From a virus: a stretch of 64,000 nucleotides of DNA. The notes beneath the pieces were generated by a model, which saw only the letters and a list, made by a program, of their open reading frames with translations, was not told the origin of the DNA and made no database searches. Both the position numbers and the translations under genes were made by a program. This document shows, piece by piece, positions 1-44,312 of this stretch. The first letter of the stretch is position 1. Each line of letters begins with the position of its first letter. The DNA lies in the IMG/VR virus record IMGVR_UViG_3300013113_000816, positions 1 through 64,000 of that record; one strand, written 5' to 3'.

Positions 1-576
1 TCTGTTAATGGAAAATCGACAGTAGTTGGTTACATTGGTGAATCCAAATTATGTGATATAATGGGTTGGAAACAAGTAGATGGAGATGGCTATGATGCAA
101 TTACAACTGAAAGTATTAATATTAAAGTTGGTAACCAAACAATTCAAAAAACTAACCGCGAAATCAAAATCGAAATAAAAACGATGACGAACATCACATC
201 GACAAATCAGTTACCGTTTGATTCCGAGATGAAAAAAGATAAATATGATTACCTAGCGATCTACTTGTATAGTGAAAACAGGTTAAGTTTGATTCCACAT
301 GATGATATAGACACATTAGTTAGAACACCTGGTGTGGGGTTAACGTTGAATATTAAACCTGGAGTTAGACATAATCATAAAGTACCTGTTTATAGTGAAT
401 TAACCAAGTTGTTCTTCAAATATGAGATAAAGAGGTATAATATAGAACACACATTAACAAACATTGAATCAAAAGCAAATGCACGGGTGGAAAACAAACA
501 ACAACGAGTGGATAACAATGTGGAATTAAATAAAGGATTAAGCAAAACATTAAGCGTAGGTGAAGAAATGGTGTAG
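1..576 (+). CDS. Unrecognised protein, 5' end cut by window edge
   Basis: The reading frame is open from the first base, so the ATG at 61 is probably internal and the true start lies outside the window. The visible part is about 191 residues. The middle is hydrophilic and mixed alpha/beta in appearance (KYDYLAIYLYSENRLSLIP) and the C-terminal third is helical and rich in charged residues and asparagine. I see no membrane segment or catalytic motif. The line 'yDYLaiY' followed by a short strand is seen in some nuclease-fold proteins, but this is too weak to name a function. The gene is followed by a hairpin-rich region and then a promoter, so it probably ends a transcription unit. Confidence 0.7.
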   Translation, partial: SVNGKSTVVGYIGESKLCDIMGWKQVDGDGYDAITTESINIKVGNQTIQKTNREIKIEIKTMTNITSTNQLPFDSEMKKDKYDYLAIYLYSENRLSLIPHDDIDTLVRTPGVGLTLNIKPGVRHNHKVPVYSELTKLFFKYEIKRYNIEHTLTNIESKANARVENKQQRVDNNVELNKGLSKTLSVGEEMV

Positions 577-696
577 TGTTACGTGGGATAGGAGAGGGAT
601 GGGGTTAGCCCCTTCATTCCGATCCCCAACCTCTCTTCAAAGTACTTTAAAAATATATATGAACCGCGCGCTGTTCACGCCTCCCCGCGAGGTGAT
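577..696. other. Hairpin-rich non-coding stretch downstream of the first gene
   Basis: There is no plausible gene here. It contains nested inverted repeats (GAGAGG near 590 with CCTCTC near 630, enclosing GGGG-TTAG-CCCC) and a GC-rich hairpin CCTC-cccgc-GAGG just before the promoter at 697. The GC content stands out from the AT-rich surroundings. It may act as a transcription end for the upstream gene, although there is no clean U-run. Confidence 0.4.
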
Positions 697-727
697 TTGG
701 AGAAGCCAAGGAATGTTCGTATATTTA
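697..727 (+). promoter_or_regulatory. Bacteroidota-type promoter for a non-coding transcript
   Basis: TTG at 697-699, exactly 20 nt, then TATATTTA at 720-727, preceded by TTCG. This matches the TTTG / TAnnTTTG arrangement known for Bacteroidota sigma factors. The next credible ORF starts nearly 400 nt downstream at 1123, so the first product would be the structured RNA region 735-1100. Confidence 0.6.
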
Positions 728-734
728 CCGCGTT

Positions 735-1110
735 GATTAATTAAAGCACATTATGAAATAAATTAAGCAAAGAATTAAGCAAAGAATTAAGCAATCTACC
801 TGCTGAAGACAAACAGTGAAAGAACCAGTATAGTGACCTTTGGGATATCTATAGAATACGTCATATTCACTAAAATTGAAAATTGGCAGGTAGTTATTTA
901 AACTTAGTTCCTATGCTACTTGAGTATGTTTTACCATACAATAACGTGAGATAGTAGATATATTAGTAAGTAAAAATACTAATTGAGTGAGGTTTGACTC
1001 CTCCATAGGGCGAAATTAGTAGGGGTAGAAAGGTATCTTTATTTAGATACAAGTGGATTGAAAGCTAGCATCGAGGGTTCGATTCCCTCCTACCCTAACA
1101 ACTAAACATA
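735..1110 (+). ncRNA. Candidate structured non-coding RNA with three helix-closed modules
   Basis: No ORF fits this stretch, but it starts at a promoter and holds three consecutive modules, each closed by a long-range helix. The first is 796-893, closed by CTACCTGC/GCAGGTAG, with inner helix AGTGAA 815-820 / TTCACT 866-871. The second is 909-1010, closed by TCCTATG/CATAGGG, with inner CTACT 916-920 / AGTAG 953-957, hairpin GTATG/CATAC, hairpin ATTAGTA 962-968 / TACTAAT 977-983 and a T-arm-like GAGG-TTTGACT-CCTC. The third is the tRNA-like fold 1022-1097. Three 12-nt direct repeats of AATTAAGCAAAG (761-796) precede the modules. Helices were read by eye, and no known RNA family is recognised. 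Confidence 0.45.
1022..1097 (+). tRNA. tRNA-like element, non-canonical (possibly degenerate)
   Basis: The 7-bp acceptor stem is GGGGTAG (1022-1028) with CTACCCT (1090-1096). The discriminator A at 1097 is followed by ACA. A perfect 5-bp T-stem GAGGG/CCCTC (1073-1077, 1085-1089) carries the canonical T-loop TTCGATT. The total length of 76 nt is exactly tRNA-like. The D and anticodon arms are not canonical: GTATC/GATAC forms a 5-bp hairpin with an 8-nt loop, and the expected anticodon region (TTGAAAG, which would read GAA) has a poorly paired stem. It could be a decayed tRNA, a tRNA mimic, or the 3' end of a larger RNA. Confidence 0.4.
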
Positions 1111-1122
1111 ATAAAATAACAT

Positions 1123-1425
1123 ATGGCAGGTAAAGGCAGACCCAAGGGTCAACAATCAAAAACATGCCTCATTAAGGATGAGCTGATAGCACCTTATGAG
1201 GTTCACATTGACAAGTATAATTACATTTTAATCAATGGGAAAACAGGTGTAACCGAAGGATATTACACACACTTAACATATGCTTTAAGGGCAGTGTTGA
1301 AGAAGCGGTATGTTCCAACAGGAGGTGATGAAAATGTTTATACAATAAAACAATATATTGAAGCAATGCAATTAATGCGCGATGAAATGACGGAATTATT
1401 GGTTCCAGCGCATCATAAGCTATAA
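1123..1425 (+). CDS. Small conserved-looking protein of unknown function
   Basis: 100 aa. It starts MAGKGRPKGQQSK, a basic nucleic-acid-binding type of leader, followed by a mixed alpha/beta body with several tyrosines (YNYILINGKTGV, YYTHLTYALRAVLKKRY). The first ATG after the tRNA-like element is used and is preceded by A-rich sequence. There is no membrane segment or known catalytic motif. Position among early small genes suggests a regulatory or host-takeover role, but this is only context. Confidence 0.75.
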   Translation: MAGKGRPKGQQSKTCLIKDELIAPYEVHIDKYNYILINGKTGVTEGYYTHLTYALRAVLKKRYVPTGGDENVYTIKQYIEAMQLMRDEMTELLVPAHHKL

Positions 1426-1865
1426 TATGCTGTTGGTGGTTCGTACGTAATACATTACTATTAGAATCATCGTCCGTACCTTATACATTACTAGTAAGGT
1501 AGGGGTACATACTTCCTATAATACACATAGGGGAGTACATAATAATATAATCATAATAATATCATAACATAACATGCTATAACACTGCATAACATATAAT
1601 GTAATGCTGTAGGCGGGCGGCGGGCGTACGCCGGTATATATGCAATATATCCCATGTGCGCTGATGTCCATATATGCGTGGATACGCCAAGGAAGGAAGT
1701 AGATGTATGATCAGTTCAAACCACCCCTTTCACCACCGACCAAGTATATCCCTATATAATATACCATGGCATTTCCCATTTTGCCCAACCAATGTAAAAT
1801 CCAAAGGATCCAAAATCGTCTCTTTAACAAATCTTTTTGTATCGAGCAAGGTATATACGAAGGAT
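1426..1865. other. Long non-coding stretch with iteron-like repeats and a GC island
   Basis: No credible gene. Two imperfect 19-nt direct repeats lie at 1442-1460 and 1475-1493 (CGTACxTxATACATTACTA, 17 of 19 identical). An AT-rich tract with recurring CATAACAT-type words spans about 1540-1605. A striking GC island at 1611-1634 contains the perfect palindrome GGCGTACGCC (1623-1632). Direct repeats, AT-rich DNA and a palindrome together could mark an origin or a protein-binding region, but nothing proves this. Confidence 0.35.
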
Positions 1866-1896
1866 TTGGTCACCTGGGGAACTTTTCGTATATTTA
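1866..1896 (+). promoter_or_regulatory. Bacteroidota-type promoter for the gene at 1916
   Basis: TTG 1866-1868, 20 nt spacer, TATATTTA 1889-1896, preceded by TTTTCG. It lies 19 nt upstream of the ATG at 1916, so the leader would be only about a dozen nucleotides. Confidence 0.65.
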
Positions 1897-1915
1897 TACC
1901 ATATAAAAACACACC

Positions 1916-2224
1916 ATGGAAGACTTCAATTTAAGAAAATACTTAAAAGAAAATAAGCTAGTAAAAGAAGACTCTAGAATGTCCACTTTCAAACCGGGTG
2001 ATATGTATTCGGCTAATTTTGATTACAAAGGTATGTTAGATTATTTAAGGAACATAGATATGGAAACAGCGGATGTGGAAGAGCTAGAAAAGGTGCATAC
2101 GTCTTTAGTAGATGTTAATTATCATGCAGAAGCAAGCGCGTTGTCGTTCTTCATTGATGCTTTAAAAGACCATGACCCAGCTATTCAAGGCTATTATAAG
2201 GAGTTAATAAAAACAATAGGATAA
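1916..2224 (+). CDS. Putative internal/virion protein with DFNLRKYL leader
   Basis: 102 aa, unknown function. Residues 1-19 (MEDFNLRKYLKENKLVKED) match the leaders of the proteins starting at 37912 and 42989 (NLRNYL, DLRKYL). The leader contains L-V-K-E followed by D, compatible with a T4 gp21-type cleavage rule. The body is helical and acidic (ETADVEELEKVHTSLVDVNYHAEASAL). Its own promoter sits directly upstream. The 3' end overlaps the convergent minus-strand gene at 2204 by 21 nt. I infer capsid targeting from the leader. The alternative is that the leader is a protein-protein docking helix. Confidence 0.75.
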   Translation: MEDFNLRKYLKENKLVKEDSRMSTFKPGDMYSANFDYKGMLDYLRNIDMETADVEELEKVHTSLVDVNYHAEASALSFFIDALKDHDPAIQGYYKELIKTIG

Positions 2225-2326
2225 AAAATCTCTCAATATAGCTGCTTTTTCATAATACTCTTTTTTAACAGCAAATTTTAACATATCCCTTAAAATATCT
2301 TCGGTAAGAACTATTTTATCTCTCAT
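2204..2326 (-). CDS. Micro-gene 10 of the minus-strand operon (UVR-like helix)
   Basis: 40 aa, read directly from the sequence and ending in TAA inside the convergent gene. The core VKKEYYEKAAILRDFL resembles the UVR helical hairpin motif (YEKAAxLRD) of UvrB/C, ClpC and McsA proteins. A lone UVR-like helix could contact such host partners, but 40 residues are too few to be sure. The ATG is preceded by AAACCAAAACAAAG, as elsewhere in this operon. The reading frame overlaps the stop of the gene upstream. Confidence 0.6.
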   Translation of the reverse strand: MRDKIVLTEDILRDMLKFAVKKEYYEKAAILRDFLSYCFY

Positions 2327-2492
2327 CTTTGTTTTGGTTTAAGTACTCTTTCTCTTTTTCTTCATACCATTCTTTATACTCATCTGTACCATTATACATC
2401 ACCTCCCCTGTATGTAGTTCTACAAAGAACCCCATTCCAAAGCTGTGCCCATAATCTTTAATGAATTGTTTGATATAATCTTGTTTACTCAT
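2316..2492 (-). CDS. Micro-gene 9 of the minus-strand operon
   Basis: 58 aa hydrophilic protein (MSKQDYIKQFIKDYGHSFG...) with a strand-like centre (GMGFFVELHTGEVMYNGTDEYKE: a short beta hairpin) and a charged helical tail. The C-terminus LNQNKDER is encoded by the same repeat that forms the start region of the next gene. No known family recognised. Confidence 0.7.
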   Translation of the reverse strand: MSKQDYIKQFIKDYGHSFGMGFFVELHTGEVMYNGTDEYKEWYEEKEKEYLNQNKDER

Positions 2493-2670
2493 CTTTGTTT
2501 TGGTTTAATAGTAAAAAGGTTTTATCATTATCAGTTAATTCACTTCTTAATCTAGGAATACCAGCTTTATCATGTTGTTCTTCTGGTGTCCATTTATTCA
2601 TTCTATAATCATAATTCTTACTATGGAATATAATAGACCTTTCTCTCTCAGTTAATTCTTCTTCACTCAT
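2485..2670 (-). CDS. Micro-gene 8 of the minus-strand operon
   Basis: 61 aa, MSEEELTERERSIIFHSKNY..., charged and probably helical, no membrane segment. It ends LNQNKDE, the translated copy of the intergenic repeat. Overlaps the following gene by 8 nt. Unknown function; likely early host-interaction protein by context only. Confidence 0.7.
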   Translation of the reverse strand: MSEEELTERERSIIFHSKNYDYRMNKWTPEEQHDKAGIPRLRSELTDNDKTFLLLNQNKDE

Positions 2671-2951
2671 CTTTGTTTTGGTTTATTTATTTCATCTATC
2701 ACTTTATAAAATTCTTTTTCCGCCTTTTCCAATCTTTTTAAATGTATTTTATATTCATCTTTATCTATCAACTTAGGGTTAATACATTCCACTCTACTTT
2801 CACCTTTTATAGGTACGAAATAGGATAAATGTTCATCCTTATCAGAACTAATTTTTTTTACTACTTCTTCTATAAAAGTTGGTATCTCAGTGTTAATCAA
2901 ATTACCGGTGTCTATATAATGCACTAAAATTAATTTATCTTTATTCATCAT
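2667..2951 (-). CDS. Micro-gene 7 of the minus-strand operon
   Basis: 94 aa. The N-terminal strand is KLILVHYIDTGNLI, the middle is mixed, and the C-terminal helix is charged (LKRLEKAEKEFYKVIDEI), followed by NKPKQR. That tail is the intergenic repeat translated in another frame than LNQNKDE. Two ATGs occur in tandem at the start (2951 and 2948); the first one follows the repeat directly. No family recognised. Confidence 0.7.
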   Translation of the reverse strand: MMNKDKLILVHYIDTGNLINTEIPTFIEEVVKKISSDKDEHLSYFVPIKGESRVECINPKLIDKDEYKIHLKRLEKAEKEFYKVIDEINKPKQR

Positions 2952-3153
2952 CTTTGTTTTGGTTTAATTTATGGTGTAACATATTTCTTAATTTATTCAC
3001 CTCTGTCATTTTTACTCTCCCAAAATCTTCACAATAGTAATTCTCTTTAACACTCATCCCATTATCAGCTTGGGTTTTCAATTGAGTCCAATAATCATAT
3101 ATTAAATCTACTAATTCAGATTTGTCTAATTGGTTTAATTCTTCTTTACTCAT
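2941..3153 (-). CDS. Micro-gene 6 of the minus-strand operon
   Basis: 70 aa, MSKEELNQLDKSELVDLIYDYWTQLK..., mostly helical. The start resembles SAP- or LEM-like short helices (LDKSELVDLIYDY), which I do not consider enough for a call. It ends KLNQNKDDE from the shared repeat and overlaps the next start. Confidence 0.7.
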   Translation of the reverse strand: MSKEELNQLDKSELVDLIYDYWTQLKTQADNGMSVKENYYCEDFGRVKMTEVNKLRNMLHHKLNQNKDDE

Positions 3154-3239
3154 CTTTGTTTTGGTTTAATTATTTCTATAATAACAATTAATGTTAAATT
3201 AATACAAGTTATTAATAATAATATCTCAGTTAGACTCAT
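3150..3239 (-). CDS. Micro-gene 5: 29-residue membrane peptide
   Basis: 29 aa, read directly. After MSLTE there is an almost continuous hydrophobic run (ILLLITCINLTLIVIIEII), then KPKQR from the translated repeat. This is a single-span membrane peptide. The same start element and a 4-nt stop/start overlap with the neighbour argue that it is real despite its length. It could act on the host envelope. Confidence 0.6.
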   Translation of the reverse strand: MSLTEILLLITCINLTLIVIIEIIKPKQR

Positions 3240-3251
3240 CTTTGTTTTGGT

Positions 3252-3533
3252 TTAATTCTTTAAGAGATTAACAAATCTATAACAATGAGCAAAATAATCC
3301 CTTCCAGTATGAGAATTAACCTCATCAGTTCTGTTTAACAATACATTTAAAAACAATGCCGATAAATGATGATAATATTTTCTAGCATAATATTCATCAT
3401 CACCATCAAATTTAAGTTGTTCAATCAATTCTATGTTACTATATTTTTTACCATTGGAAAACTCATACACCAACTTATCAACTAGTTTGTTGCCTTTGTC
3501 CAAATAATCATATTCTTTTTCTCTAGTTTTCAT
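3252..3533 (-). CDS. Micro-gene 4 of the minus-strand operon
   Basis: 93 aa helical protein (YDYLDKGNKLVDKLVYEF, EYYARKYYHHLSALFLNVLLNRTDEV) with many aromatic residues. No catalytic motif or membrane span strong enough to name. Its start element is a variant (AAACCAAAAGAAG before the ATG), the least conserved copy in the series. Overlaps the upstream gene by 11 nt. Confidence 0.7.
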   Translation of the reverse strand: MKTREKEYDYLDKGNKLVDKLVYEFSNGKKYSNIELIEQLKFDGDDEYYARKYYHHLSALFLNVLLNRTDEVNSHTGRDYFAHCYRFVNLLKN

Positions 3534-3684
3534 CTTCTTTTGGTTTTAAGTTATCAGATAGTATTTTTTGTATATCCTTGTCCATAGATAATTCATACAT
3601 AATATCTATTTCTTTATCTGTTGGGTTAGGTAATTTAAGCAATAACCCATATAACTTTTTCTTAGCTTCAATTATTTCTCTCAT
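3523..3684 (-). CDS. Micro-gene 3 of the minus-strand operon
   Basis: 53 aa, MREIIEAKKKLYGLLLKLP..., two predicted helices, ending KPKEDEN, where the stop falls inside the start region of the next gene. The ATG is preceded by AAACCAAAACAAAG. No recognised family. Confidence 0.65.
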   Translation of the reverse strand: MREIIEAKKKLYGLLLKLPNPTDKEIDIMYELSMDKDIQKILSDNLKPKEDEN

Positions 3685-3703
3685 CTTTGTTTTGGTTTAT
3701 TTT

Positions 3704-3808
3704 TCATATTATAATTAATGTATATATTATTACAGAACAAGCAATTAATGTTCCTATAATATGTAACCCCTTCTGTAACTTATTTAATTTATTCCAATCC
3801 TCTATCAT
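3704..3808 (-). CDS. Micro-gene 2: 34-residue membrane peptide
   Basis: 34 aa, read directly. A short polar N-terminus (MIEDWNKLNKLQKG) is followed by a hydrophobic segment LHIIGTLIACSVIIYTLIII up to the stop. Preceded by the shared element in a slightly altered form (AAACAAAACAAAG). Probably a single-pass inner-membrane peptide. Confidence 0.55.
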   Translation of the reverse strand: MIEDWNKLNKLQKGLHIIGTLIACSVIIYTLIII

Positions 3809-3820
3809 CTTTGTTTTGTT

Positions 3821-3937
3821 TTATAGAACAGCACTTAAAACACTAGCTATTATTCCTATAATAATGAATAACCAAGTTAATTGTTCATGTGATTGTTCTG
3901 ATTCTTTTTTTACTTGTGTTTTTGTTTTAAACTTCAT
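3821..3937 (-). CDS. Micro-gene 1 (promoter-proximal): 38-residue membrane peptide
   Basis: 38 aa, read directly. A basic N-terminus (MKFKTKTQVKKE) and a C-terminal membrane span (LTWLFIIIGIIASVLSAVL). It is the first gene after the promoter at 3951-3981, with a leader of only about 7-10 nt that contains CCAAAACAAAG before the ATG. Confidence 0.6.
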   Translation of the reverse strand: MKFKTKTQVKKESEQSHEQLTWLFIIIGIIASVLSAVL

Positions 3938-3950
3938 CTTTGTTTTGGCG

Positions 3951-3981
3951 TCAATATACGAAAGAAATATGGGATTTCCAA
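3951..3981 (-). promoter_or_regulatory. Promoter of the minus-strand micro-gene operon
   Basis: On the minus strand: TTG (complement of 3979-3981), exactly 20 nt including TTTCG, then TATATTGA (complement of 3951-3958). It is the same type as the plus-strand promoters and lies back to back with the one at 4015. Confidence 0.6.
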
Positions 3982-4014
3982 GTTATTCCCAAAAAAACGT
4001 ATATACGTAAGAAA

Positions 4015-4045
4015 TTGGTTACCTGAAGGGCCTTTCGTATATTTA
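4015..4045 (+). promoter_or_regulatory. Promoter of the tandem leader-peptide gene cluster
   Basis: TTG 4015-4017, 20 nt ending TTTCG, TATATTTA 4038-4045. The last bases also form TATTTATAA (4040-4048), so the site may serve both host-type and late transcription. It is divergent to 3951-3981, with the palindrome ACGTATATACGT between the two. Confidence 0.65.
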
Positions 4046-4061
4046 TAATAAATTATATTCA

Positions 4062-4289
4062 ATGAAAAAATCAGAACTAAGGAAAATTATCAAAGAGGAA
4101 ATTTTGAAAGAATCACTTCAATTTACCCCGGAGGAGAAAAAAGAAGGCCAACAAATGGAAATGAAAGTAAATGTTCTATCTACCATAGATGAATTAAACC
4201 AGTTTCTGAATGGTAATGTAACCGCTGAGGGATTGAAAGATGCTTTAGAAAGTATGATTTATAAACTAAATAGATTAAATTATAAATAA
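4062..4289 (+). CDS. Putative capsid-targeted internal protein 1
   Basis: 75 aa. Leader MKKSELRKIIKEEILKE is followed by S, giving L-K-E|S at residue 17. The body (EEKKEGQQMEMKVNVLSTIDELNQFLNG...) is helical and small. It is the first of six head-to-tail genes with the same leader, spaced by -4 to +9 nt. Leader plus ΦxE site is how T4 internal proteins are sent into the prohead and trimmed by gp21. Cargo function unknown. Confidence 0.75.
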   Translation: MKKSELRKIIKEEILKESLQFTPEEKKEGQQMEMKVNVLSTIDELNQFLNGNVTAEGLKDALESMIYKLNRLNYK

Positions 4290-4534
4290 TGAAAAAATCA
4301 GAATTAAGAAAATTAATTAAAGAGGAATTAAAATCTGTAAATGAAGGAATTGAAAATAAAATTCCCGGAATGAGAGATTTCTTATTATTTAAATCCATTA
4401 TGGATACTCGAACTATAAAACGTGCTGATGATGAAGATCAACGTAGATGGGCTGAGGTTACTGAGGAATTAGATGATACCTTAACGCGTTGGATGGATTT
4501 GTTGTTAGAATTAGATAAAATATACCCATCATGA
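4289..4534 (+). CDS. Putative capsid-targeted internal protein 2
   Basis: 81 aa. Leader MKKSELRKLIKEELKSVNE then G (V-N-E|G). The mature part would begin GIENKIPGMRDF and is helical with many charges (RADDEDQRRWAEVTEELDDTLTRWMDLLLELD). Shares one base with the previous stop (TAATG). Unrelated to its neighbours after the leader, which supports a modular leader plus cargo design. Confidence 0.75.
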   Translation: MKKSELRKLIKEELKSVNEGIENKIPGMRDFLLFKSIMDTRTIKRADDEDQRRWAEVTEELDDTLTRWMDLLLELDKIYPS

Positions 4535-4752
4535 AAAGATCACAACTAAGACAAATAATCAAAGAAGAAATCTCAAAAGAATTAAAGGAAGGCGCTTTAA
4601 TGGACCAGGGTGGTTGGGATTATAACTTAATGGACCAGATAGAGGATAAAGTTGAGGAATTAAACTCAATAATTGGGAAATATGATAATGAGGAGATTAT
4701 TAATTTAATAAATGAAATTATTAGAGATCTTGAACAGCTGAAAAATAAATAA
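4531..4752 (+). CDS. Putative capsid-targeted internal protein 3
   Basis: 73 aa. Leader MKRSQLRQIIKEEISKELKE then G (L-K-E|G). The cargo is short, acidic and helical (MDQIEDKVEELNSIIGKYDNEEIINLINEI). Overlaps the preceding gene by 4 nt (ATGA). Confidence 0.75.
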   Translation: MKRSQLRQIIKEEISKELKEGALMDQGGWDYNLMDQIEDKVEELNSIIGKYDNEEIINLINEIIRDLEQLKNK

Positions 4753-5027
4753 TGAAAAAATCTGAATTAAAACGTATTATCAAAGAAGAAATTTCCAAGG
4801 TATTAAAAGAAAATACTATGGAAATAAAACCCGGAATTAACCTAAAAGGGAATGATGGTAACTTATATACAGTCCTAAAAGCGGGTAATCCTCAAACCCC
4901 ACACCTCATTAACAATGTAGTTGCATTAATGAGATTTAATGATGATGAAATTGTTTATTTCCCTCAAGATTTCGGTAGATATTTAGAAATAGACCAATTT
5001 TGGGATCATTTTGAACAAACTAGATAA
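4752..5027 (+). CDS. Putative capsid-targeted internal protein 4
   Basis: 91 aa. Leader MKKSELKRIIKEEISKVLKE then N (L-K-E|N). The cargo looks beta-rich, like a small SH3 or PUA-type barrel (GINLKGNDGNLYTVLKAG ... VALMRFNDDEIVYFPQDFGR), and so differs in fold from its neighbours. No catalytic motif seen. Confidence 0.75.
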   Translation: MKKSELKRIIKEEISKVLKENTMEIKPGINLKGNDGNLYTVLKAGNPQTPHLINNVVALMRFNDDEIVYFPQDFGRYLEIDQFWDHFEQTR

Positions 5028-5029
5028 TT

Positions 5030-5350
5030 ATGAAAAAATCACAACTAAGAAAAATCATTAGAGAAGAACTTAAAGGAGCACTAAATGAAGGTATTAACCC
5101 TTTAAAACATCATTTCTTAAATTTACAATTAGATCTTAGACAAGAACTTATTAATAAATTAAAGGGTATGGATACCCAAGCATATATTGCAACTATTGAA
5201 AAATTGATTAATGAAGAGGGTTGGAATATTGGAAATCCTGAGGATGGTAGAGAGGTGTATTTATATATCCAAGGGATGGATGATCAAAAAGTTGAGGCTG
5301 CATTAGAAAGTGAAGCCCTTATAAGAGGATACGGTACACATATTAGATAA
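5030..5350 (+). CDS. Putative capsid-targeted internal protein 5
   Basis: 106 aa. Leader MKKSQLRKIIREELKGALNE then G (L-N-E|G). Helical cargo (LQLDLRQELINKLKGMDTQAYIATIEKLINEEGW). Unknown function; starts 3 nt after the previous stop. Confidence 0.75.
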   Translation: MKKSQLRKIIREELKGALNEGINPLKHHFLNLQLDLRQELINKLKGMDTQAYIATIEKLINEEGWNIGNPEDGREVYLYIQGMDDQKVEAALESEALIRGYGTHIR

Positions 5351-5358
5351 AATAAATT

Positions 5359-5670
5359 ATGAAAAGATCACAACTAAGGAAAATCATCAAAGAAGAACTT
5401 AGTAAATCTATTGTTGAAAATGAACAGTGGAGTGCAGGTGATGTAAGTGAAATTATGAGGCAATTATTGTTAACTCAAAAAACATTGAGAAATGGTGCTT
5501 CTCATATGGAGAGATTAATTGAAGTATTAGGTAAGTATGTTAATAAACCCCAAGGAGATAAATTAGCAGGTATGGTTCCTGATAACTACCAGGTAATTGA
5601 TATTCTTAATAAAATGGAGAATTTAAATAAAGGTCTTCATGCTATGTTCCCACATTTAAATAAAAAATGA
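5359..5670 (+). CDS. Putative capsid-targeted internal protein 6
   Basis: 103 aa. Leader MKRSQLRKIIKEELSKSIVE then N (I-V-E|N). Helical cargo (VSEIMRQLLLTQKTLRNGASHMERLIEVLGKYV) with a lysine-ending tail. Last of the tandem series; its stop overlaps the start of the next small gene. Confidence 0.75.
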   Translation: MKRSQLRKIIKEELSKSIVENEQWSAGDVSEIMRQLLLTQKTLRNGASHMERLIEVLGKYVNKPQGDKLAGMVPDNYQVIDILNKMENLNKGLHAMFPHLNKK

Positions 5671-5843
5671 CTCACAACGAATTAATATGCTACATACAAG
5701 GGGTTTTAGATGCTCATCGTAAAATCAAAATTGAAGTAAGTAAAACTACTAAAATTGAAGATTTAGAAAGTGGGGAGATTTGTGAGAGGTTGATAGAAAA
5801 GGCAATAGAAAAATATAGAGAAAACCCCTCTCCCAAAGCTTAA
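5667..5843 (+). CDS. Small helical protein
   Basis: 58 aa, MTHNELICYIQGVLDAHRK..., ATG overlapping the previous stop (ATGA). Amphipathic helices, no leader of the capsid-targeting type, and ends NPSPKA. No family recognised. It closes the small-gene cluster ahead of the promoter at 5886. Confidence 0.6.
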   Translation: MTHNELICYIQGVLDAHRKIKIEVSKTTKIEDLESGEICERLIEKAIEKYRENPSPKA

Positions 5844-5885
5844 TCCCGAATATCTGTCGATTTATCATGCTTATCCCAAGATACT

Positions 5886-5916
5886 TTGGAATTAGTAAAG
5901 TTCCTTAGTATATTAT
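5886..5916 (+). promoter_or_regulatory. Bacteroidota-type promoter upstream of the T9SS protein
   Basis: TTG 5886-5888, 20 nt, TATATTAT 5909-5916. It is followed at once by a TATTTATAA motif (5920-5928) 9 nt before the ATG at 5938, so two promoter types overlap here. Confidence 0.5.
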
Positions 5917-5937
5917 CCATATTTATAACAAATAATT

Positions 5938-7509
5938 ATGGAAACAAATTCAAAAAAATACAGCTTTTACACTTTAATAATAATCCTTTTAGCAATGTTT
6001 ATTGGTGGGTATCAAACTTGCGCCCAACCAACAGTAACCCTCATGCCTGTTGATGGGAATTGGTATACTTGGACTGTTGATGATGGAATCTTATATGATG
6101 ATGGGGATGTAGGTGGAAATTATACTAATAATGGTTTAGGAGCATTAACAATATATCCTACAGACCAAACCAGTGATAAAATTTATTTAAGATTTGTTGA
6201 ATTTAGAGTTGAAAACCATTCATCTTGTAATTACGATTATTTAGAAGTTTATGATGGAGATGATTTTACTACGTTAATTGGTAAATATTGTGGTACAGAT
6301 TTACCAGATGTTGTTCAATCAACACATCCAACAGGAGCCGTTACATTATTATGGTCTTCAGACTTTTCAGTTACAGATGCAGGATTTAAAATAGATGTTA
6401 GTGTAATAGATCCATTATGGACTATTGAATTGGGAGATAGAAATTCTCAATCAACAGACGGCAGAGTACCATCATATGGTTATTATGATTATTCATGGTC
6501 TGGTTTAATGTGGGGTCAAGCAGATATGGGAGTTCCTATTATAATAGAGAGCATTTCATTTGATGTGGTAAATGATATTGATTTAACTATGAACAATCAA
6601 AAAATATATTTAGCACATACCTCTGCTAATATGTTTCCTGATGGAATAGAACCCACAGATGGTAGTGGCCCATGGACAGATTGGACATTGGTGTATGCGG
6701 GAGATATTAAATGGGTTCAAGGATGGAATACTATTACATTAGATGCTCCTTTTGTTTATAATGGGTTAGAAGGATTATTAGTTAAAACTGTAAATGAAGA
6801 TGGTTCATGGGTAAGTGCATACCCTCAATATAGATACACTTCTAGAGCAAATACAGTTGTATATAATTATGCTGATGGAGCATTTCCAGGACCATCAGGG
6901 TTTAGAAATTCTTTAAGACCTAATATGAGGTTTGGATTTGGAGGGGGTGGAGCTTTACCTATTGTTTTAATGTCGTTTACAGGAGAAGTTAATGATAATA
7001 ATAATGTTAATTTAAATTGGGTTGTTGCATCTCAAGTAAATAATGATTATTTCACTATTGAAAGAAGTTTAGATTGTAGGGAATGGGAAGTTGTTGATAA
7101 TATTAATGGAGCAGGAAATAATAATATGGAAATGAGTTATAATTTAGTAGACCATAATCCCCATCTTGGATTATCTTATTATAGATTATCACAAACTGAT
7201 TATGATGGGAAATTTGAAGTATTCAACCCAATATCAGTAGAAGTTTCAAATGAACACACTGTTGGTTTACATATAGTCCCTAATCCAGCAATTGATAATA
7301 TACATTTAGAATTAGTTTATCCAAATGACCACCCAATAAACCATGATGTAAAAATATATAATTCAAAAGGTGAAGAAGTGTATAAAATGTTTTATATAGG
7401 TGAATTAGAAGAATTTAATATAAACATACAGAAATTTGTCCCCGGATATTATATAGTAAGATCAAAAAGTGATAATTTAAATGGTGAAGGTAAATTTATA
7501 AAGAAATAA
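5938..7509 (+). CDS. Secreted CUB-domain protein with type IX secretion sorting domain
   Basis: 523 aa. Residues 1-29 form a clear signal peptide (basic start, LIIILLAMFIGG core, TCA before Q30, the usual Bacteroidota cleavage context). Residues about 35-157 read as a CUB-like domain (YLRFVEFRVENHSSCNYDYLEVYDG, YCGTDLP), a beta-sandwich typical of extracellular adhesion or binding proteins. About 445-523 is a Por secretion-system C-terminal sorting domain: VPNPAIDNIHLEL, VKIYNSKGEEVYKM, FVPGYYIVRS, KFIKK. Known role of such domains: export across the outer membrane by T9SS, then cleavage or anchoring. The substrate is unknown. A phage-encoded T9SS client suggests altering the surface of the infected cell. 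Forms a close cluster with the SiaC-like gene. Confidence 0.85.
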   Translation: METNSKKYSFYTLIIILLAMFIGGYQTCAQPTVTLMPVDGNWYTWTVDDGILYDDGDVGGNYTNNGLGALTIYPTDQTSDKIYLRFVEFRVENHSSCNYDYLEVYDGDDFTTLIGKYCGTDLPDVVQSTHPTGAVTLLWSSDFSVTDAGFKIDVSVIDPLWTIELGDRNSQSTDGRVPSYGYYDYSWSGLMWGQADMGVPIIIESISFDVVNDIDLTMNNQKIYLAHTSANMFPDGIEPTDGSGPWTDWTLVYAGDIKWVQGWNTITLDAPFVYNGLEGLLVKTVNEDGSWVSAYPQYRYTSRANTVVYNYADGAFPGPSGFRNSLRPNMRFGFGGGGALPIVLMSFTGEVNDNNNVNLNWVVASQVNNDYFTIERSLDCREWEVVDNINGAGNNNMEMSYNLVDHNPHLGLSYYRLSQTDYDGKFEVFNPISVEVSNEHTVGLHIVPNPAIDNIHLELVYPNDHPINHDVKIYNSKGEEVYKMFYIGELEEFNINIQKFVPGYYIVRSKSDNLNGEGKFIKK

Positions 7510-7889
7510 TGGAAATAAAAGCCTTAGGGAATAAACCCTATGTTAAATTAGATAAAGAAAATTGTACCCTAACTATTAAAGGTAAATCATACCCTGAACA
7601 CCCCTCAACTTTTTATAATCCTATCCTAGAAGAATTGGAAAAATGCTCAGAATATATGGAAGGGGCGGTTATAACCATTGACTTAGCATTAGAAATTATG
7701 AATTCTGTTTCTACTAAATATATTTACCATATGATTAAAAAAATAGATGGGTCTGCTAGAAATCTTGTTATCAATTGGTATTATGAAGAAGATGATGATG
7801 ATATGAAAGAAGAGGGTTCTTTATTTAGAAATGCTTTCCCTAATTCAAAGTTTAACATAATTTTTGTAGAGGATTTGATGGAGATATGA
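7509..7889 (+). CDS. SiaC-family regulatory protein (DUF1987)
   Basis: 126 aa, the usual length for the SiaC/DUF1987 family. Signatures: an N-terminal strand pair with IKGKSYPEHPSTFYNPILEEL (compare G.SypEn...Fy.pl), a helix with AVITIDLALEIMNSVSTKYIYHMIKKI, and NWYYEEDDDDMKEEG, the hallmark WyYeEdDedm.e.G. In bacteria SiaC is a phospho-switched partner of a diguanylate cyclase or PP2C-type phosphatase module. In a phage it may mimic or titrate the host partner; that is inference. Its start overlaps the stop of the T9SS gene by one base, so the two are translated together. Confidence 0.8.
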   Translation: MEIKALGNKPYVKLDKENCTLTIKGKSYPEHPSTFYNPILEELEKCSEYMEGAVITIDLALEIMNSVSTKYIYHMIKKIDGSARNLVINWYYEEDDDDMKEEGSLFRNAFPNSKFNIIFVEDLMEI

Positions 7890-8272
7890 TAGGTTTTGTT
7901 GTTTTAATTGTTGCCTCTATTTTACTCTATCTATTACTTCCAATAGTTTCTATTTTTATGATTATTAAATATCTCTTTACAGGGGATAAAAGGATGATGT
8001 CTGTTTGGTTTTGGCGTACAGCTAGAGAAATTGATGTATTTGCTAATGTAAATGGAGCAGAATTTTTTGATGCTATTTTTATTAGAGATGGGGGGTATAA
8101 ATTTGGTAATCCTAAAGAAACCATCTCTTCCGTGATTGGAAAAAATCAAAGAGATAATACATTATCCATAGCAGGTCAAATATTAAGGTGGATGTTAGAT
8201 AGAATAGATCAAGACCATTGTTTAAACTCCATCAATTCTCAAGCCACTAATACTAAAAAAGACACGCATTAA
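7886..8272 (+). CDS. Small membrane protein with GGYKFGxPKETISSVIGKN motif
   Basis: 128 aa. Residues 2-32 form one long or two short membrane spans (FVVLIVASILLYLLLPIVSIFMIIKYLF). The soluble part has a motif I recall from proteins of Bacteroidota phages and prophages: GGYKFGNPKETISSVIGKNQRDNTLS followed by LDRIDQDHC. Function of that family is unknown to me; a membrane-anchored lysis or exclusion role is possible. Overlaps the SiaC-like gene by 4 nt. Confidence 0.7.
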   Translation: MIGFVVLIVASILLYLLLPIVSIFMIIKYLFTGDKRMMSVWFWRTAREIDVFANVNGAEFFDAIFIRDGGYKFGNPKETISSVIGKNQRDNTLSIAGQILRWMLDRIDQDHCLNSINSQATNTKKDTH

Positions 8273-8397
8273 CAGCATTTAACGCGCATTTACTGCATTA
8301 TCACGCGATATTGGCATATATCGTGGATATTGCGTAATATGCGTTGATTTTCGCACAAAAGTAATTAACATTCTCTTGTCTTTCCTGCGCAGGAGAC
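8273..8397. other. Intergenic stretch with repeated CGCATT words and inverted repeat
   Basis: No gene. Recurring (A)CGCATT/GCATTTA words occur at 8263-8305. An imperfect palindrome CACGCGATAT-tggcat-ATATCGTG follows, then TGCGTAATATGCG. Position directly ahead of the promoter at 8398 suggests operator-like sites. Confidence 0.35.
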
Positions 8398-8428
8398 TTG
8401 GAGTCCCAGGAAATCTTTCGTATATTTA
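8398..8428 (+). promoter_or_regulatory. Bacteroidota-type promoter for the DUF932-like gene
   Basis: TTG 8398-8400, 20 nt ending TTTCG, TATATTTA 8421-8428. It lies 38 nt before the ATG at 8467. Confidence 0.65.
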
Positions 8429-8466
8429 CGGACGTAAATAAGAAATAATAATAAAAAATAAAGTAT

Positions 8467-9273
8467 ATGTTAGATTTAAGTAAAGTAGAATTTTTAAGTG
8501 ATGAGCAAATTAAAGAACAAGCACCTTCAGTGTTTACTCAAAAGCCATCAAAAGAAGTTTCAAAACATTACACTCACATTCCTACAACTAAAGTTATCAA
8601 TGATATGAGAACACTAGGTTGGGATGTTGTTGATGCTAAGCAAGTTGCTGCTCGTACAAGCTCAACAAGAGGTGTTCAGAAACATTTAGTTGTATTTAGG
8701 AATCCTGATGTTGTCATTAATGGAAATGATGGTGATACAGTTTTTCCACAAATTTTGTTAACAAATAGTCATGATGGTAAAAATAGTTTTACTTTCACTG
8801 CGGGATTGTTTAGAATGGTTTGTGAAAATGGTTTGGTTATTTCGGAAACTCAATTTGAAGATGTTAAAATGAGACATATGGGTTATTCATTTGAGGAATT
8901 GCAAGTTCAAATTAGAGAAATGGTTGAGAAATTACCATTAACTGTTGAGTCAATGAATAAAATGAAATCCATAGATTTAGAACAAGAAAAAGCTGTTGAT
9001 TTTGCTAAAAAAGCTCTTGGAACTCGATTTACAAAGGATGAATTGAAGAGAATTAAAATTGATGTTATTGAATTATTAAACCCAGTTCGTGAAGAAGATT
9101 GTGGAAATGATTTATGGTCAATTTTTAATGTAGTTCAAGAAAAAATCATTGAAGGTGATTTTGAATATTCAATTGGGAGTAAAGTTCGTAAAGCTCGTCA
9201 AATTAAAAATTTCAAACAAGACCAAAAGATCAATAAAGAATTATTTGATTTAGCGTTAGAGTACGTTTCATAA
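8467..9273 (+). CDS. DUF932-type phage/plasmid protein
   Basis: 268 aa. The central region PQILLTNSHDGKNSFTFTAGLFRMVCENGLVISE matches the DUF932 (plasmid/phage LGT protein) pattern, with an N-terminal part (TTKVINDMRTLGWDVVDAKQV) and C-terminal helices typical of it. Biochemical role unknown; members sit on phages, plasmids and near defence or anti-defence genes. It has its own promoter upstream and a strong terminator downstream, so it is a single-gene unit and probably highly expressed early. Confidence 0.8.
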   Translation: MLDLSKVEFLSDEQIKEQAPSVFTQKPSKEVSKHYTHIPTTKVINDMRTLGWDVVDAKQVAARTSSTRGVQKHLVVFRNPDVVINGNDGDTVFPQILLTNSHDGKNSFTFTAGLFRMVCENGLVISETQFEDVKMRHMGYSFEELQVQIREMVEKLPLTVESMNKMKSIDLEQEKAVDFAKKALGTRFTKDELKRIKIDVIELLNPVREEDCGNDLWSIFNVVQEKIIEGDFEYSIGSKVRKARQIKNFKQDQKINKELFDLALEYVS

Positions 9274-9297
9274 TAGAATTAAATTTCAAATAGTACA

Positions 9298-9323
9298 AGC
9301 TCCCAAATGGGAGCTTTTTTTTT
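9298..9323 (+). terminator. Rho-independent terminator after DUF932-like gene
   Basis: Stem AGCTCCC (9298-9304), loop AAAT, GGGAGCT (9309-9315), followed by a run of eight or more T. Confidence 0.9.
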
Positions 9324-9364
9324 CTTAATATAATTTGCCATACTAAAATATTTTTTTAATATTT

Positions 9365-9823
9365 ATGGGCATGGACATTAACCGTATATTCAATTTATTC
9401 AATCCTGATGATGACTTTAGATCTCCAACTAAGCAAGAGTCTGGGGTAGATTTCCAATTTGAGGAATTTAAAACTACTCCTCCTTATTACATAGGAATGT
9501 TTGAAAAAATGATCTTAAACCATAATAATGTCAGGAACCAAGTAGTTAAATTATTCCAGAAATCAAATGAAGAATTTAATCTTCATGAAATTGAAGAAGC
9601 TGGAGAATTTATGGCTTATAATAGAGCTTGGGAGTACATTAAAGATTGTGAATTAGATGACCAATGTTGGAAAGAAAGTTTATTACTTAGAAATAGTGAT
9701 TACTTAATTACTGCATTAAAATTGGCAACCCATTACTTTGAAGGTTATGAAGAATACGAGAAATGCGCCTTTCTTAACAAAATCCAACTTTTTCTTGAAG
9801 ATAATTTGGCTCCCGAATCCTAA
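9365..9823 (+). CDS. Unrecognised helical protein
   Basis: 152 aa (146 if the ATG at 9371 is used). Largely helical and acidic (EEFNLHEIEEAGEFMAYNRAWEYIKDCELDDQCW). No membrane span or catalytic signature. A TATTTATGG sequence at 9360 overlaps the first ATG, which would favour the second ATG if it is a late-promoter relative. The gene stands alone between a terminator and two hairpins. Confidence 0.7.
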   Translation: MGMDINRIFNLFNPDDDFRSPTKQESGVDFQFEEFKTTPPYYIGMFEKMILNHNNVRNQVVKLFQKSNEEFNLHEIEEAGEFMAYNRAWEYIKDCELDDQCWKESLLLRNSDYLITALKLATHYFEGYEEYEKCAFLNKIQLFLEDNLAPES

Positions 9824-9842
9824 ATTAGTACATTATGGATAC

Positions 9843-9902
9843 GGGTTTGTTAGAAACCCCAAAACGTATAAATAAAAAAACGTGACCCGGTGATAGGGTT
9901 AC
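9843..9902. other. Two consecutive hairpins between genes
   Basis: Hairpin 1: GGGTTT (9843-9848), GTTAG, AAACCC (9854-9859). Hairpin 2: GTGACCC (9882-9888), 7-nt loop, GGGTTAC (9896-9902). Between them lies TATAAATA, the classical T4 late-promoter word, in plus orientation and occurring apparently alone. No U-run follows either hairpin. Confidence 0.4.
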
Positions 9903-9935
9903 CACAGTGGGTTAAGATTAACTAATAGATAATTT

Positions 9936-10103
9936 ATGAGAAATAAACAATTGGCACAAAATCGCCTCCAAAAACTGAATGGTTTACTAAAAAAGCTTGA
10001 CATGAATATTCACAGAGGTGGTAGTAAAGAAGAAATTAACTCCACTCAGAGAGAAATTAATCAAATCGTTCAAGATTTAAGTGATATAATAGAAAGAGAA
10101 TAA
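9936..10103 (+). CDS. Small coiled-coil protein
   Basis: 55 aa, read directly: MRNKQLAQNRLQKLNGLLKK... to a helical end DLSDIIERE. Two amphipathic helices with leucine spacing suggest a short coiled coil. The stop overlaps the ATG of the HD gene (TAATG), which supports translation. Function unknown. Confidence 0.65.
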   Translation: MRNKQLAQNRLQKLNGLLKKLDMNIHRGGSKEEINSTQREINQIVQDLSDIIERE

Positions 10104-10864
10104 TGGAATTAACAGCAGAGCAAATACAATCTAATTGGGAAAAATTTATAGGCTATATTAACACCTATATTTCAGACCCTAGAAAAGACCAACTCCTAAA
10201 GTTTTATAAAAAACATGAAGAAGAAATCATGTTAATGCCTGCTTCCCATAAAAAGGCATACCATAATGCTTTTCCAGGGGGATATGTTGATCATGTTAAT
10301 CGAGTTATAGAAGGTGCTTTAGAAATTAATAAGGTATGGTATAACTTTGGAGCAGAACAAAACTATACAATCGAAGAACTTGTATTCTCAGCTATTAATC
10401 ATGATTTAGGTAAAATGGGAGAAGAAGATAACTATGCACATCAACCCTCAACTGATGAATGGAGAAAAAAGAATTTGGGTGAAATGTATAAGTTTAATAA
10501 TTCAATTGCTTATATGTCAGTTCCTGAACGATCCATTAAACTTTTAGTTGATAACGATATTAAATTAACCCAGAATGAATGGTTATCTATTCGTTTACAT
10601 GATGGGTTATATGATCCAGCAAATGAACCTTATTTAAAAAACTATATGCCAGAGTTAAAACCTCGAACTTCTCTCGTATTTATAATTCATCAAGCAGATT
10701 TAATGGCATCAAGAATAGAATTCGAAAAAGAATGGTTACCAAAATTTGGTAAGGAAGACAAACCAAAGAACAATTTCAAAGTAAACAACAAAACCAACTC
10801 AAAAAATAAAGCACTCAGCTCAATTAAAAGTGAGGGGTTAAAAAGCATGTTAGATAATTTATGA
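10103..10864 (+). CDS. HD-domain phosphohydrolase
   Basis: 253 aa. Metal-ligand pattern of the HD superfamily: histidine in GGYVDHVNRVIEGAL (about residue 60), the HD pair in AINHDLGKMGEEDNY (about residues 99-100), then LVFIIHQADLMASRIEFE (about 205) with the terminal Asp. Members hydrolyse phosphate esters of nucleotides or cyclic nucleotides. In phages these proteins are usually placed with nucleotide metabolism or signal degradation. The last 40 residues are a lysine/asparagine-rich tail. Overlaps the next gene by 4 nt. The substrate cannot be read from the sequence. Confidence 0.75.
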   Translation: MELTAEQIQSNWEKFIGYINTYISDPRKDQLLKFYKKHEEEIMLMPASHKKAYHNAFPGGYVDHVNRVIEGALEINKVWYNFGAEQNYTIEELVFSAINHDLGKMGEEDNYAHQPSTDEWRKKNLGEMYKFNNSIAYMSVPERSIKLLVDNDIKLTQNEWLSIRLHDGLYDPANEPYLKNYMPELKPRTSLVFIIHQADLMASRIEFEKEWLPKFGKEDKPKNNFKVNNKTNSKNKALSSIKSEGLKSMLDNL

Positions 10865-11145
10865 TTACTATAACCATTATTTCCGTTTTATCGGTTTTAG
10901 TCGTGATATTTGGTTTCACGACTTTTAATCTCCTCAAGAAGAATGAAAAACAAGAGGACATTCTTGTTGGGTATCTTGAATACCTTGATAGAATTTCTAA
11001 AGTAATAGAAGCCTCAGATAAAAAATTAAAAGAAATAGACCACAGCGGAGTATTTAAATCAGATGATGAAGTGGGTCAGTTCTTCAAATCAGTACAAGAA
11101 ATTCAAAAAATATTAAACGATTTTAAAGTAAAAAGATTAAAGTGA
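10861..11145 (+). CDS. Small membrane-anchored coiled-coil protein
   Basis: 94 aa. N-terminal membrane span (ITIISVLSVLVVIFGFTTFNLL) followed by a charged helix (YLEYLDRISKVIEASDKKLKEID) and a C-terminal helix. It lies between the HD hydrolase and the late sigma factor with overlapping stops and starts. No family recognised. Confidence 0.7.
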   Translation: MITITIISVLSVLVVIFGFTTFNLLKKNEKQEDILVGYLEYLDRISKVIEASDKKLKEIDHSGVFKSDDEVGQFFKSVQEIQKILNDFKVKRLK

Positions 11146-11873
11146 TTGTGGCAAAAAAACGAAGACCTAAATCTAAAAACTACTTCACTAAAGACACTGA
11201 AGCAGCTATAGTTAGATATAACAATGAACCTAACCCTGAGGTTAGGAGTGATATTTACAGGGATGAAATTCATTATCCCTTTTTTAAACTAACAGAAAAT
11301 ATAATCCATACATTTAAGTTTTATTATACTGAAGTAGATAATATAGAACATTTACAACACGAGATAATAACATTTTTATTAACCAAAATGCATTTATTCA
11401 ACCCAGACAAAGGGGCTAAAGCATATTCATATTTTGGTACTATAGTTAAGAATTGGCTTATAATATATAACAACAAAAACTATTCAAAACGATTAAAATC
11501 AGCACCAGTAGATGATTTATATAAGGATGAAACCTATTCTTATAATTTAGAAGATGAAAGAATAGTAGATAATTTATCTCATTTTATAGATAATTACATT
11601 AAATACGTTGAGGAAAATTTTGAAGATTTTTTTCCAAAAGGAAACGATGCTAAAATAGCAGACGCCATACTAGAATTATTTAGAAAAAGAGAAAGTATAG
11701 AAATATTTAACAAAAAAGCTTTATATATTTATATTAGGGAAATAATGGCTACTAACGGGTTAGAAGTAAAAACACCCAAGATTACAAAAATAGCAAATAA
11801 GTTATATGATTTATTTAAAGGAAGTTATATATTTTACTTAGAGACAGGATATATTGATTTTGAAAAAAATTAA
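11142..11873 (+). CDS. gp55-like: Late-transcription sigma factor, T4 gp55-like
   Basis: 243 aa, longer than T4 gp55 (about 185). The region with HEIITFLLTKMHLFNPDKGAKAYSYFGTIVKNWLIIYNNK reads like sigma region 2 (NPekG.A.aYf.tivkN), which binds core polymerase and melts the -10 region, followed by the less conserved DDLYKDE part. Known role: gp55 directs RNA polymerase to late promoters. Starts with GTG, either at 11142 (overlapping the previous stop) or at 11148. The TATTTATAA motif before many structural genes in this window, beginning 8 nt after this gene, is the natural candidate target. Confidence 0.7.
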   Translation: MIVAKKRRPKSKNYFTKDTEAAIVRYNNEPNPEVRSDIYRDEIHYPFFKLTENIIHTFKFYYTEVDNIEHLQHEIITFLLTKMHLFNPDKGAKAYSYFGTIVKNWLIIYNNKNYSKRLKSAPVDDLYKDETYSYNLEDERIVDNLSHFIDNYIKYVEENFEDFFPKGNDAKIADAILELFRKRESIEIFNKKALYIYIREIMATNGLEVKTPKITKIANKLYDLFKGSYIFYLETGYIDFEKN

Positions 11874-11880
11874 TTTTTCA

Positions 11881-11889
11881 TATTTATAA
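11881..11889 (+). promoter_or_regulatory. Late-promoter-like motif before the baseplate cluster
   Basis: TATTTATAA, 20 nt before the ATG at 11910. First copy ahead of the tail-gene block. Confidence 0.5.
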
Positions 11890-11909
11890 CCAACAAAAAC
11901 CCCATAAAT

Positions 11910-13582: not shown

Positions 13583-13584
13583 AT

Positions 13585-14913: not shown

Positions 14914-14915
14914 AA

Positions 14916-15668: not shown

Positions 15669-15676
15669 TAATATAA

Positions 15677-15685
15677 TATTTATAA
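15677..15685 (+). promoter_or_regulatory. Late-promoter-like motif
   Basis: TATTTATAA, 10 nt before the ATG at 15696. Confidence 0.5.
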
Positions 15686-15695
15686 AAAACATAGT

Positions 15696-44249: not shown

Positions 44250-44282
44250 GTGGCCCATCCTTTGGATGGGTCACTTTTTTTT
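44250..44282 (+). terminator. Terminator closing the head-core cluster
   Basis: Stem GTGGCCCATCC (44250-44260), loop TTT, GGATGGGTCAC (44264-44274) with one G-U pair, followed by eight T. Strong rho-independent terminator that also contains the TTG of the next promoter. Confidence 0.9.
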
Positions 44283-44292: not shown

Positions 44293-44312
44293 CACCAAAA
44301 CTAAATTAGTAA

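Follow-up and report, generated by a model that had tools for sequence, protein, structure and literature searches.

The window analysed here is a 64.0-kb stretch of a T4-related phage (positions 1 to 64,000 of the 65.2-kb viral record IMGVR_UViG_3300013113_000816), and its minus strand carries an array of ten consecutive open reading frames of 29-94 codons that runs from 3937 to 2204. The ATG of every array gene is directly preceded by AAACCAAAACAAAG or a variant of it, an element that we call the joint, and we refer to the single genes between joints as cassettes (Table 1). Seven copies of the exact element AAACCAAAACAAAGATG are present, each of which lies on the minus strand at a start codon (low ends 2324, 2490, 2668, 2949, 3151, 3237 and 3682). 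Non-exact elements are AAAACAAAACAAAGATG ahead of gene 3808 and ACGCCAAAACAAAGATG ahead of the first gene, 3937, and gene 3533 is preceded by a recognisable second form, TTAAAACCAAAAGAAGATG (AAAACCAAAAGAAG), which is also found in other arrays. With up to two mismatches allowed, nine sites occur in the window, whereas shuffled sequences contain 0.02 on average and never more than 1. These counts bear out the proposal of an initial annotation of this DNA that ten micro-genes share a repeated start element. Its statement that the element or a close variant precedes all ten genes holds for nine of them, the element at 3533-3546 belonging to a different sub-form.

A type IX secretion system (T9SS) sorting domain, TIGR04183, scores above its curated cut-off at the C-terminal end of gene 5938-7509 and thus points to a Bacteroidota host. 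This Bacteroidota-specific cargo, together with a T4-like terminase nearest to that of Flavobacterium phage immuto (59% identity), assigns the phage to the T4-related contractile-tailed phages of Bacteroidota; in immuto, an annotated gp20-like gene adjoins the terminase. At the head of the array, a promoter scan returned TTGGAA-17-TATATT. The promoter region is 82.6% identical over 86 bp to that of L060/L200, a relative at about 71% nucleotide identity that has different array content, and the same TTGG...TTCGTATATT layout is also present at the head of other transcription units. Given the position of this Bacteroidota-type promoter, transcripts should start at the array head, and the first leader would therefore be essentially the joint itself. 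A promoter-leader similar to the array head, TTTGG...TTCGTATATTAACACCAAAACTAAAT, lies at 44280-44305 (+) ahead of the oxidoreductase-like gene 44313, and the joint may derive from a transcript leader of this type.

Table 1. Features of the ten-gene array (positions in the window).
Feature	Position	Strand	Remark
Array promoter region: TTGG, ~19 nt, TTCGTATATTG	3934..4018	-	5' leader predicted to be essentially the first joint
Joint 1, ACGCCAAAACAAAG, array head	3938..3951	-	
Cassette 1: 38 aa, single-span membrane peptide	3821..3937	-	
Joint 2, AAAACAAAACAAAG	3809..3822	-	
Cassette 2: 34 aa, single-span membrane peptide	3704..3808	-	
Joint 3, exact	3685..3698	-	
Cassette 3: 53 aa	3523..3684	-	Tail KPKEDEN from second-form joint 4
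Joint 4, second form (TTA)AAACCAAAAGAAG	3533..3546	-	Canonical form in L156
Cassette 4: 93 aa	3252..3533	-	
Joint 5, exact	3240..3253	-	
Cassette 5: 29 aa, single-span membrane peptide	3150..3239	-	Tail KPKQR from joint 6
Joint 6, exact	3154..3167	-	
Cassette 6: 70 aa	2941..3153	-	Tail LNQNKDDE from joint 7
Joint 7, exact	2952..2965	-	
Cassette 7: 94 aa	2667..2951	-	Tail KPKQR
Joint 8, exact	2671..2684	-	
Cassette 8: 61 aa	2485..2670	-	Tail LNQNKDE
Joint 9, exact	2493..2506	-	C-to-T change at 2497 in both sister strains
Cassette 9: 58 aa	2316..2492	-	Tail LNQNKDER
Joint 10, exact	2327..2340	-	
Cassette 10: 40 aa, UVR-like motif, last gene of array	2204..2326	-	Overlaps end of convergent gene 1916-2224

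The full joint, TAAACCAAAACAAAGATGAGTAA, combines stops in three reading frames with a start. Its consensus, TAAACCAAAACAAAG-ATG-AGTAA, places TAA at -15, TGA at +1 and TAA at +5; these stops, one per frame, lie in TAAACC, ATGA and ATGAGTAA, respectively. We gathered joint loci using the element as bait, with the A after the ATG included, and obtained 266 distinct joint contexts from viral contigs. The upstream gene uses one of the three stops in 179 of 242 cases (+5 in 71, -15 in 56 and +1 in 52). Stops are also kept where they are not needed: the -15 stop is retained in 115 of the 142 joints at which the upstream gene terminates at another position, and 24 of 56 joints with no need for ATGAGTAA have it all the same (85/198 joints overall), compared with 11/807 other starts. 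All three frames are closed at 136/198 joints, compared with 156/807 other starts and 118/6050 random positions.

Because the joint stops all three frames and overlaps the next start, neighbouring proteins share C-terminal tails. The initial annotation had noted such element-encoded tails, and we recovered them as described at 2316, 2485, 2667 and 3150, with a slight variant at 2941 and a further tail at 3523 that comes from the second form. More widely, NKDE or KPKQR tails, which are the joint read in two of its frames, terminate 76 of 286 distinct products. These tails are a passive result of the overlap with the next start, and the three-frame stop, with a T upstream and AGTAA after the ATG, is an addition to what had been recognised earlier.

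Several features are consistent with the joint acting as a start signal that would function without a Shine-Dalgarno sequence in a Bacteroidota host. Its position is fixed, with an ATG directly after the exact core in 233 of 259 cases. The RNA around it is predicted to be nearly unstructured: the folding energy of the 40 nt from -20 to +20 is -0.6 kcal/mol for joints, -1.55 for other starts and -3.63 for random positions. Furthermore, the joint has A at -3, -6, -12 and -13, positions at which A favours translation in F. johnsoniae and is typical of its highly translated genes (PMC6847099). The host genes nevertheless differ in that their Kozak-like, Shine-Dalgarno-free starts with an unstructured start region reflect a host-wide statistical tendency (PMC6847099), whereas the joint is a fixed word of 17-24 bases that is nearly absent from host genomes.

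Specifically, 84,980 host genomes contain only 7 stretches with the 19-mer, and so the element is a phage signal and not a host one. A host-wide start signal is ruled out by this count, and the description of the element as 'Bacteroidota-specific' in the initial annotation was too broad. Among viral contigs, the element is found in at least 120 stretches, compared with 20 for the reversed pattern. In 27 records, the reversed control gave zero matches, and exact copies of the element number 7 in G000 and up to 16 in G013. Two joints each were also found on contigs assigned to non-Bacteroidota metagenome-assembled genomes (MAGs), L153 (Campylobacteraceae MAG) and L154 (Chlamydiales MAG), which are most likely mis-binned phage DNA. 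As a candidate partner of the joint we considered phage bS21, but it is encoded in only 5 of 28 records (partly incomplete), which does not establish it as a general requirement. A literature search for the joint sequences matched only unrelated papers.

In phages, a repeated upstream element is often a promoter, and the Bacteroidota-type promoter at the array head might suggest that each joint is a further promoter, or an operator bound by a protein, and not a translation element. However, conservation ends about 15-16 nt ahead of the ATG, where the bases belong to the previous gene and vary freely, no conserved -33/-7 pair accompanies the internal joints, and the position of the element is locked to the ATG. 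Repeated promoters were rejected on the basis of the unconserved flanks upstream of internal joints, and we regard the promoter or operator explanation as a whole as quite improbable.

One exact cassette replacement is seen in a sister strain, record G024 (L156), which matches window positions 1-11908 at 98.7%. Within 2204-4070, the two strains differ at 86 positions inside cassette 3 and at only 2 everywhere else. Cassette 3 (3684-3523) has been replaced in L156 by an unrelated gene for a 58-aa protein with a hydrophobic N-terminus; identity stops just past the ATGA of joint 3 and resumes at the AAGATGA of joint 4. A third strain from an independent sample, L175, carries the window allele of cassette 3 and the window array in the same order. 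A second array of about 15 cassettes lies at 12058-15728 (-) of L156, just left of the window start in that strain, and points toward the first array; it contains both joint forms and is absent from the 65-kb record.

Four further window cassettes recur from joint to joint with different neighbours. Cassette 4 has a 98.7% nucleotide copy in L196 over exactly 3235-3546, with both neighbouring genes different. The others recur in phages with distant terminases: cassette 2 in L011 (record G002; 93% nucleotide identity, match 3681-3823, terminase 35% identical), cassette 8 in L014 (record G014; 87.6%, match 2489-2674, terminase 36%) and cassette 7 in L160/L176 (the 245-kb record G005; 83% over 292 bp, terminase 33%). 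The relative L060/L200 retains the promoter and the locus but carries another gene set.

All joint-bearing sequences are metagenome contigs, and short repeats can mislead assemblers, so that the swaps might in principle be chimeric assemblies of reads at the repeat. This explanation is very unlikely because the between-lineage copies are 83-98.7% identical and not 100%, and hence do not stem from the same reads, and because arrays recur in independent samples, not only in L175 but also in the case of another array that is found in three samples (L013, L033 and L066). Moreover, the joint provides a repeat of only about 20-25 bp, and common sequencing read lengths far exceed this.

Beyond the window, sequence alignments among 121 loci reveal that similarity tends to end at joints. 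Of the alignments that reach a joint, 72-77% break there; the corresponding figures are 33-35% for codirectional starts of other genes and 15-24% for random positions. Between contigs of different phages, with near-identical contigs removed, we counted 330 breaks and 5 crossings at joints; joints broke in 97% of cases, joint-free starts within 2 kb in 61% and joint-free starts further away in 37%. The alignments end in the 20 bp around the ATG, on the side expected for a crossover inside the joint, and 27 of them span exactly from joint to joint. The idea of a cassette array whose units are gained or lost at the element, as put forward in the initial annotation, is therefore strongly supported beyond the window as well as within it, where alignment of relatives gave one exact replacement and four joint-to-joint matches; 'hypervariable' was likewise an apt description.

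These breaks could also be read in another way. The element might be only a strong translation start under purifying selection, with illegitimate recombination occurring anywhere and only junctions at gene boundaries surviving. Phages are known to follow a mosaic model in which selection acts at gene boundaries, the element has good Bacteroidota start features (PMC6847099), and joint-free starts in the neighbourhood also break often (the 61% given above). However, breaks are denser at joints, and their location and direction fit crossovers inside the joint. Furthermore, the same 17-24 letters, including cytosines that no known start rule needs, are preserved across phages with 33-36% terminase identity. 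We consider this explanation unlikely, if by no means negligible.

A dedicated recombinase acting on the joint as its target would be another possibility, given that promoterless single genes with one short repeated boundary site, one orientation and one promoter recall the site-specific cassettes of integrons. Unlike an attC-type site, however, the joint has no dyad or foldable structure, and it tolerates changes, as in the second form, that would hardly be allowed in a specific site. A search for tyrosine recombinases (PF00589) found none in 14 joint-bearing records and matched 14/14 control genomes; serine recombinases were not searched for. An integron-type system was rejected because these records lack a tyrosine recombinase and the joint lacks a dyad, and we judge integron-like exchange in general to be highly improbable.

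A second joint came to light through the product of cassette 7. This 94-aa protein has distant homologues (26-42% amino acid identity) in phages without the first joint, several of them beside another joint. This second joint, ACAATAGAAAGTTATGA(A/G)TAA, uses other letters and has the same design. Our scan found it in at least 120 stretches, and an ATG follows the exact core in all 172 cases. With its stops at -9, +1 and +5, 190 of 238 copies leave no reading frame open. We counted 1357 alignment breaks and 48 crossings at this joint, compared with 332 breaks and 367 crossings at shifted positions. That the same three-frame design recurs in different letters is the best evidence that the design itself matters.

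The two joints are almost never found together. With up to one mismatch allowed, the second joint is present in 0 of 27 records that carry the first, and among 22 second-joint records the first joint is present only in the two that were picked for mixing. In the contigs L083 and L104, exact copies of both joints stand within one operon, a mixing of two otherwise separate pools. Because both joints occur in close relatives of the window phage (terminase 69-74% identical) as well as in distant phages (27-37%), and because the pools are nearly separate, a joint marks an exchange pool and not a phage lineage. Two nearly separate joint pools that ignore phage kinship are also unpredicted by the view that the element is a pure start signal. 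Another repeated start context, AAATATAGTTATGGCAAA, stands ahead of two adjacent genes of L200 (1715-1735 and 2320-2340) and is perhaps a third joint.

On this evidence, we consider it probable that exchangeable single-gene cassettes, linked by a universal joint, form a one-promoter operon at this locus of a large T4-related phage of Bacteroidota. At the RNA level, the joint would supply each cassette with the same unstructured, A-rich and Shine-Dalgarno-free start region and might drive strong translation. Because TAA at -15, TGA at +1 and TAA at +5 close every frame within a few bases of the new start, there would be no frame constraint on cassette order: any cassette could be spliced behind any other, and coupling of termination to reinitiation should persist across joints. 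At the DNA level, the joint would offer about 20-25 bp of shared homology through which phage recombination in co-infected cells could swap, add or delete single cassettes. The joint would be held identical by selection for a functional start, and this identity would in turn keep the cassettes exchangeable. We favour homologous recombination between joints as the likely agent, rather than illegitimate events followed by selection. RecA-like genes are present in some joint-bearing records, and phage recombination systems have been reported to act on diverged homology (PMC2327257, PMC3945230).

Several observations weigh against this interpretation. The nearest isolate, immuto, has neither joint and no repeated start word of its own, and the joint-bearing sequences come from metagenomes only. 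Collection by bait biases the conservation of the element inside the collected loci upward, although this has less bearing on the results for break-points, frame stops and cross-lineage matches. Shuffling also takes place at element-free starts near arrays, and so the element is not its sole cause; it may be that shuffling genes are just the class with this type of start. Finally, with G at -3 and C at -12, the second joint follows the F. johnsoniae rule only in part.

A broader proposal, which we regard as evenly balanced between right and wrong, is that promoterless mini-gene cassettes circulate among large phages of Bacteroidota in pools that cross lineages. All that the cassettes would have in common is a stop-start joint that works in any frame and serves both as translation adaptor and as recombination homology. 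The pools would use at least two dialects, corresponding to nearly separate communities independent of phylogeny, and would amount to a self-maintaining, integrase-free counterpart of the integron. Phage variable regions swap small host-interaction genes very fast, and how single genes are swapped without damage to the operon is mostly unexplained. At this locus, the junctions can be read to the base, with one short word that closes the frames, opens the next gene and supplies homology, and so the mechanism is directly testable. The joint can also be used to search for thousands of short phage genes overlooked by gene finders and databases; tblastn searches of isolates with three cassette proteins, for example, gave no match. 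In addition, the two dialects suggest phage exchange communities that are invisible from phylogeny, and polycistronic expression in Bacteroidota could make use of the joint as a ready-made linker.

The closest known systems are the start-associated sequences (SAS) of cluster K mycobacteriophages and the promoter-early stem-loops (PeSLs) of T4-type phages. SAS/ESAS comprise a 13-bp repeat that lies immediately ahead of 13-19 gene starts and mostly points the same way; they precede unrelated small genes outside the structural region, and the authors suggested that they could be a target of homologous recombination (Pope et al. 2011, PMC3203893). The joint is likewise a repeated identical word directly ahead of many unrelated gene starts in one genome. 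However, the SAS consensus, GGGATAGGAGCCC, overlaps a canonical ribosome-binding site and was described for one phage cluster (PMC3203893), whereas the joint AAACCAAAACAAAG lacks this consensus, a G-rich core and a Shine-Dalgarno sequence, holds the start codon and three-frame stops inside the element, and is common to phages with 27-36% terminase identity. Moreover, exchange at the joint is demonstrated and not only suggested.

PeSLs, as characterised in the work cited in PMC4503421, are repeated regulatory elements, promoter-terminator composites between small variable-region genes for which modular shuffling has been proposed. The array shares with them the modular shuffling of small genes at an element in a T4-related variable region. 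It differs in that the joint contains neither a promoter nor a stem-loop and is located at start codons inside a single transcript; a scan for terminator-like sites found none on the array strand. The locus therefore resembles SAS and PeSLs yet fails a defining feature of each, and it is best called a variant of repeat-bounded modular shuffling, to which it adds a stop-start joint that is independent of frame and pools that extend across phage lineages. The host-takeover module of Bacillus phage SPO1 is also a cluster of many small early genes, several of which act on host proteins, but the abstracts of those accounts describe neither a universal joint nor between-lineage cassette exchange for SPO1 (PMC6873191, PMC10531801). 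In lambdoid phages, short conserved boundary sequences, proposed as recombination points, separate large functional modules, whereas each single gene of the array is a unit.

The cassettes mostly encode small proteins. The distinct first-joint products fall into 215 families, 174 of which are singletons; families have a median length of 61 aa, 87% are at most 100 aa long, and 33 have a membrane span. As the initial annotation had noted, three window products (3150, 3704 and 3821) are single-span membrane peptides, each with a strongly hydrophobic stretch of 19 residues (Kyte-Doolittle 2.4-2.8). None of the ten window products scored above the curated cut-off in Pfam or PHROGs, the UVR-like match of the 40-aa cassette 10 product (PF02151, E 4.8e-4) lying just under the gathering score. 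Among 102 sampled first-joint proteins, nine Pfam families each had a single member; among these families are thymidylate synthase, ThyX, spore photoproduct lyase, UvdE and DnaB, which represent DNA-metabolism genes of a kind usually made early. The host-type promoter and the presence of such genes in the same start class suggest that the operon is expressed early, and its products are probably early host-takeover or counter-host proteins. A toxin or counter-defence identity, as implied by the term 'weapon' in the initial annotation, found no supporting match in Pfam or PHROGs for the ten products, or among the defence-related models of PADLOC for the wider cassette sample.

Other features of the window lie outside the array. 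The gene at 5938-7509 (+) encodes a secreted CUB-like protein whose T9SS type A sorting domain identifies it as cargo for the host Bacteroidota secretion system. It is adjoined by genes for a SiaC-like protein at 7509-7889 (+; NF038265, below cut-off) and then a membrane protein at 7886-8272 (+). Two mostly non-coding segments, 1618-1858 and 533-689, are kept at 72-76% in L200 although the neighbouring arrays differ. Six adjacent small genes at 4062-5670 (+) have in common the N-terminus MKKSELRKIIKEE, which recurs at 15696, 43569 and 46493, and other genes (1916, 37912 and 42989) begin with MEDFNLRKYLKEN-like residues. These N-termini are possibly capsid-targeting leaders cleaved by a prohead protease, as in the internal proteins of T4.

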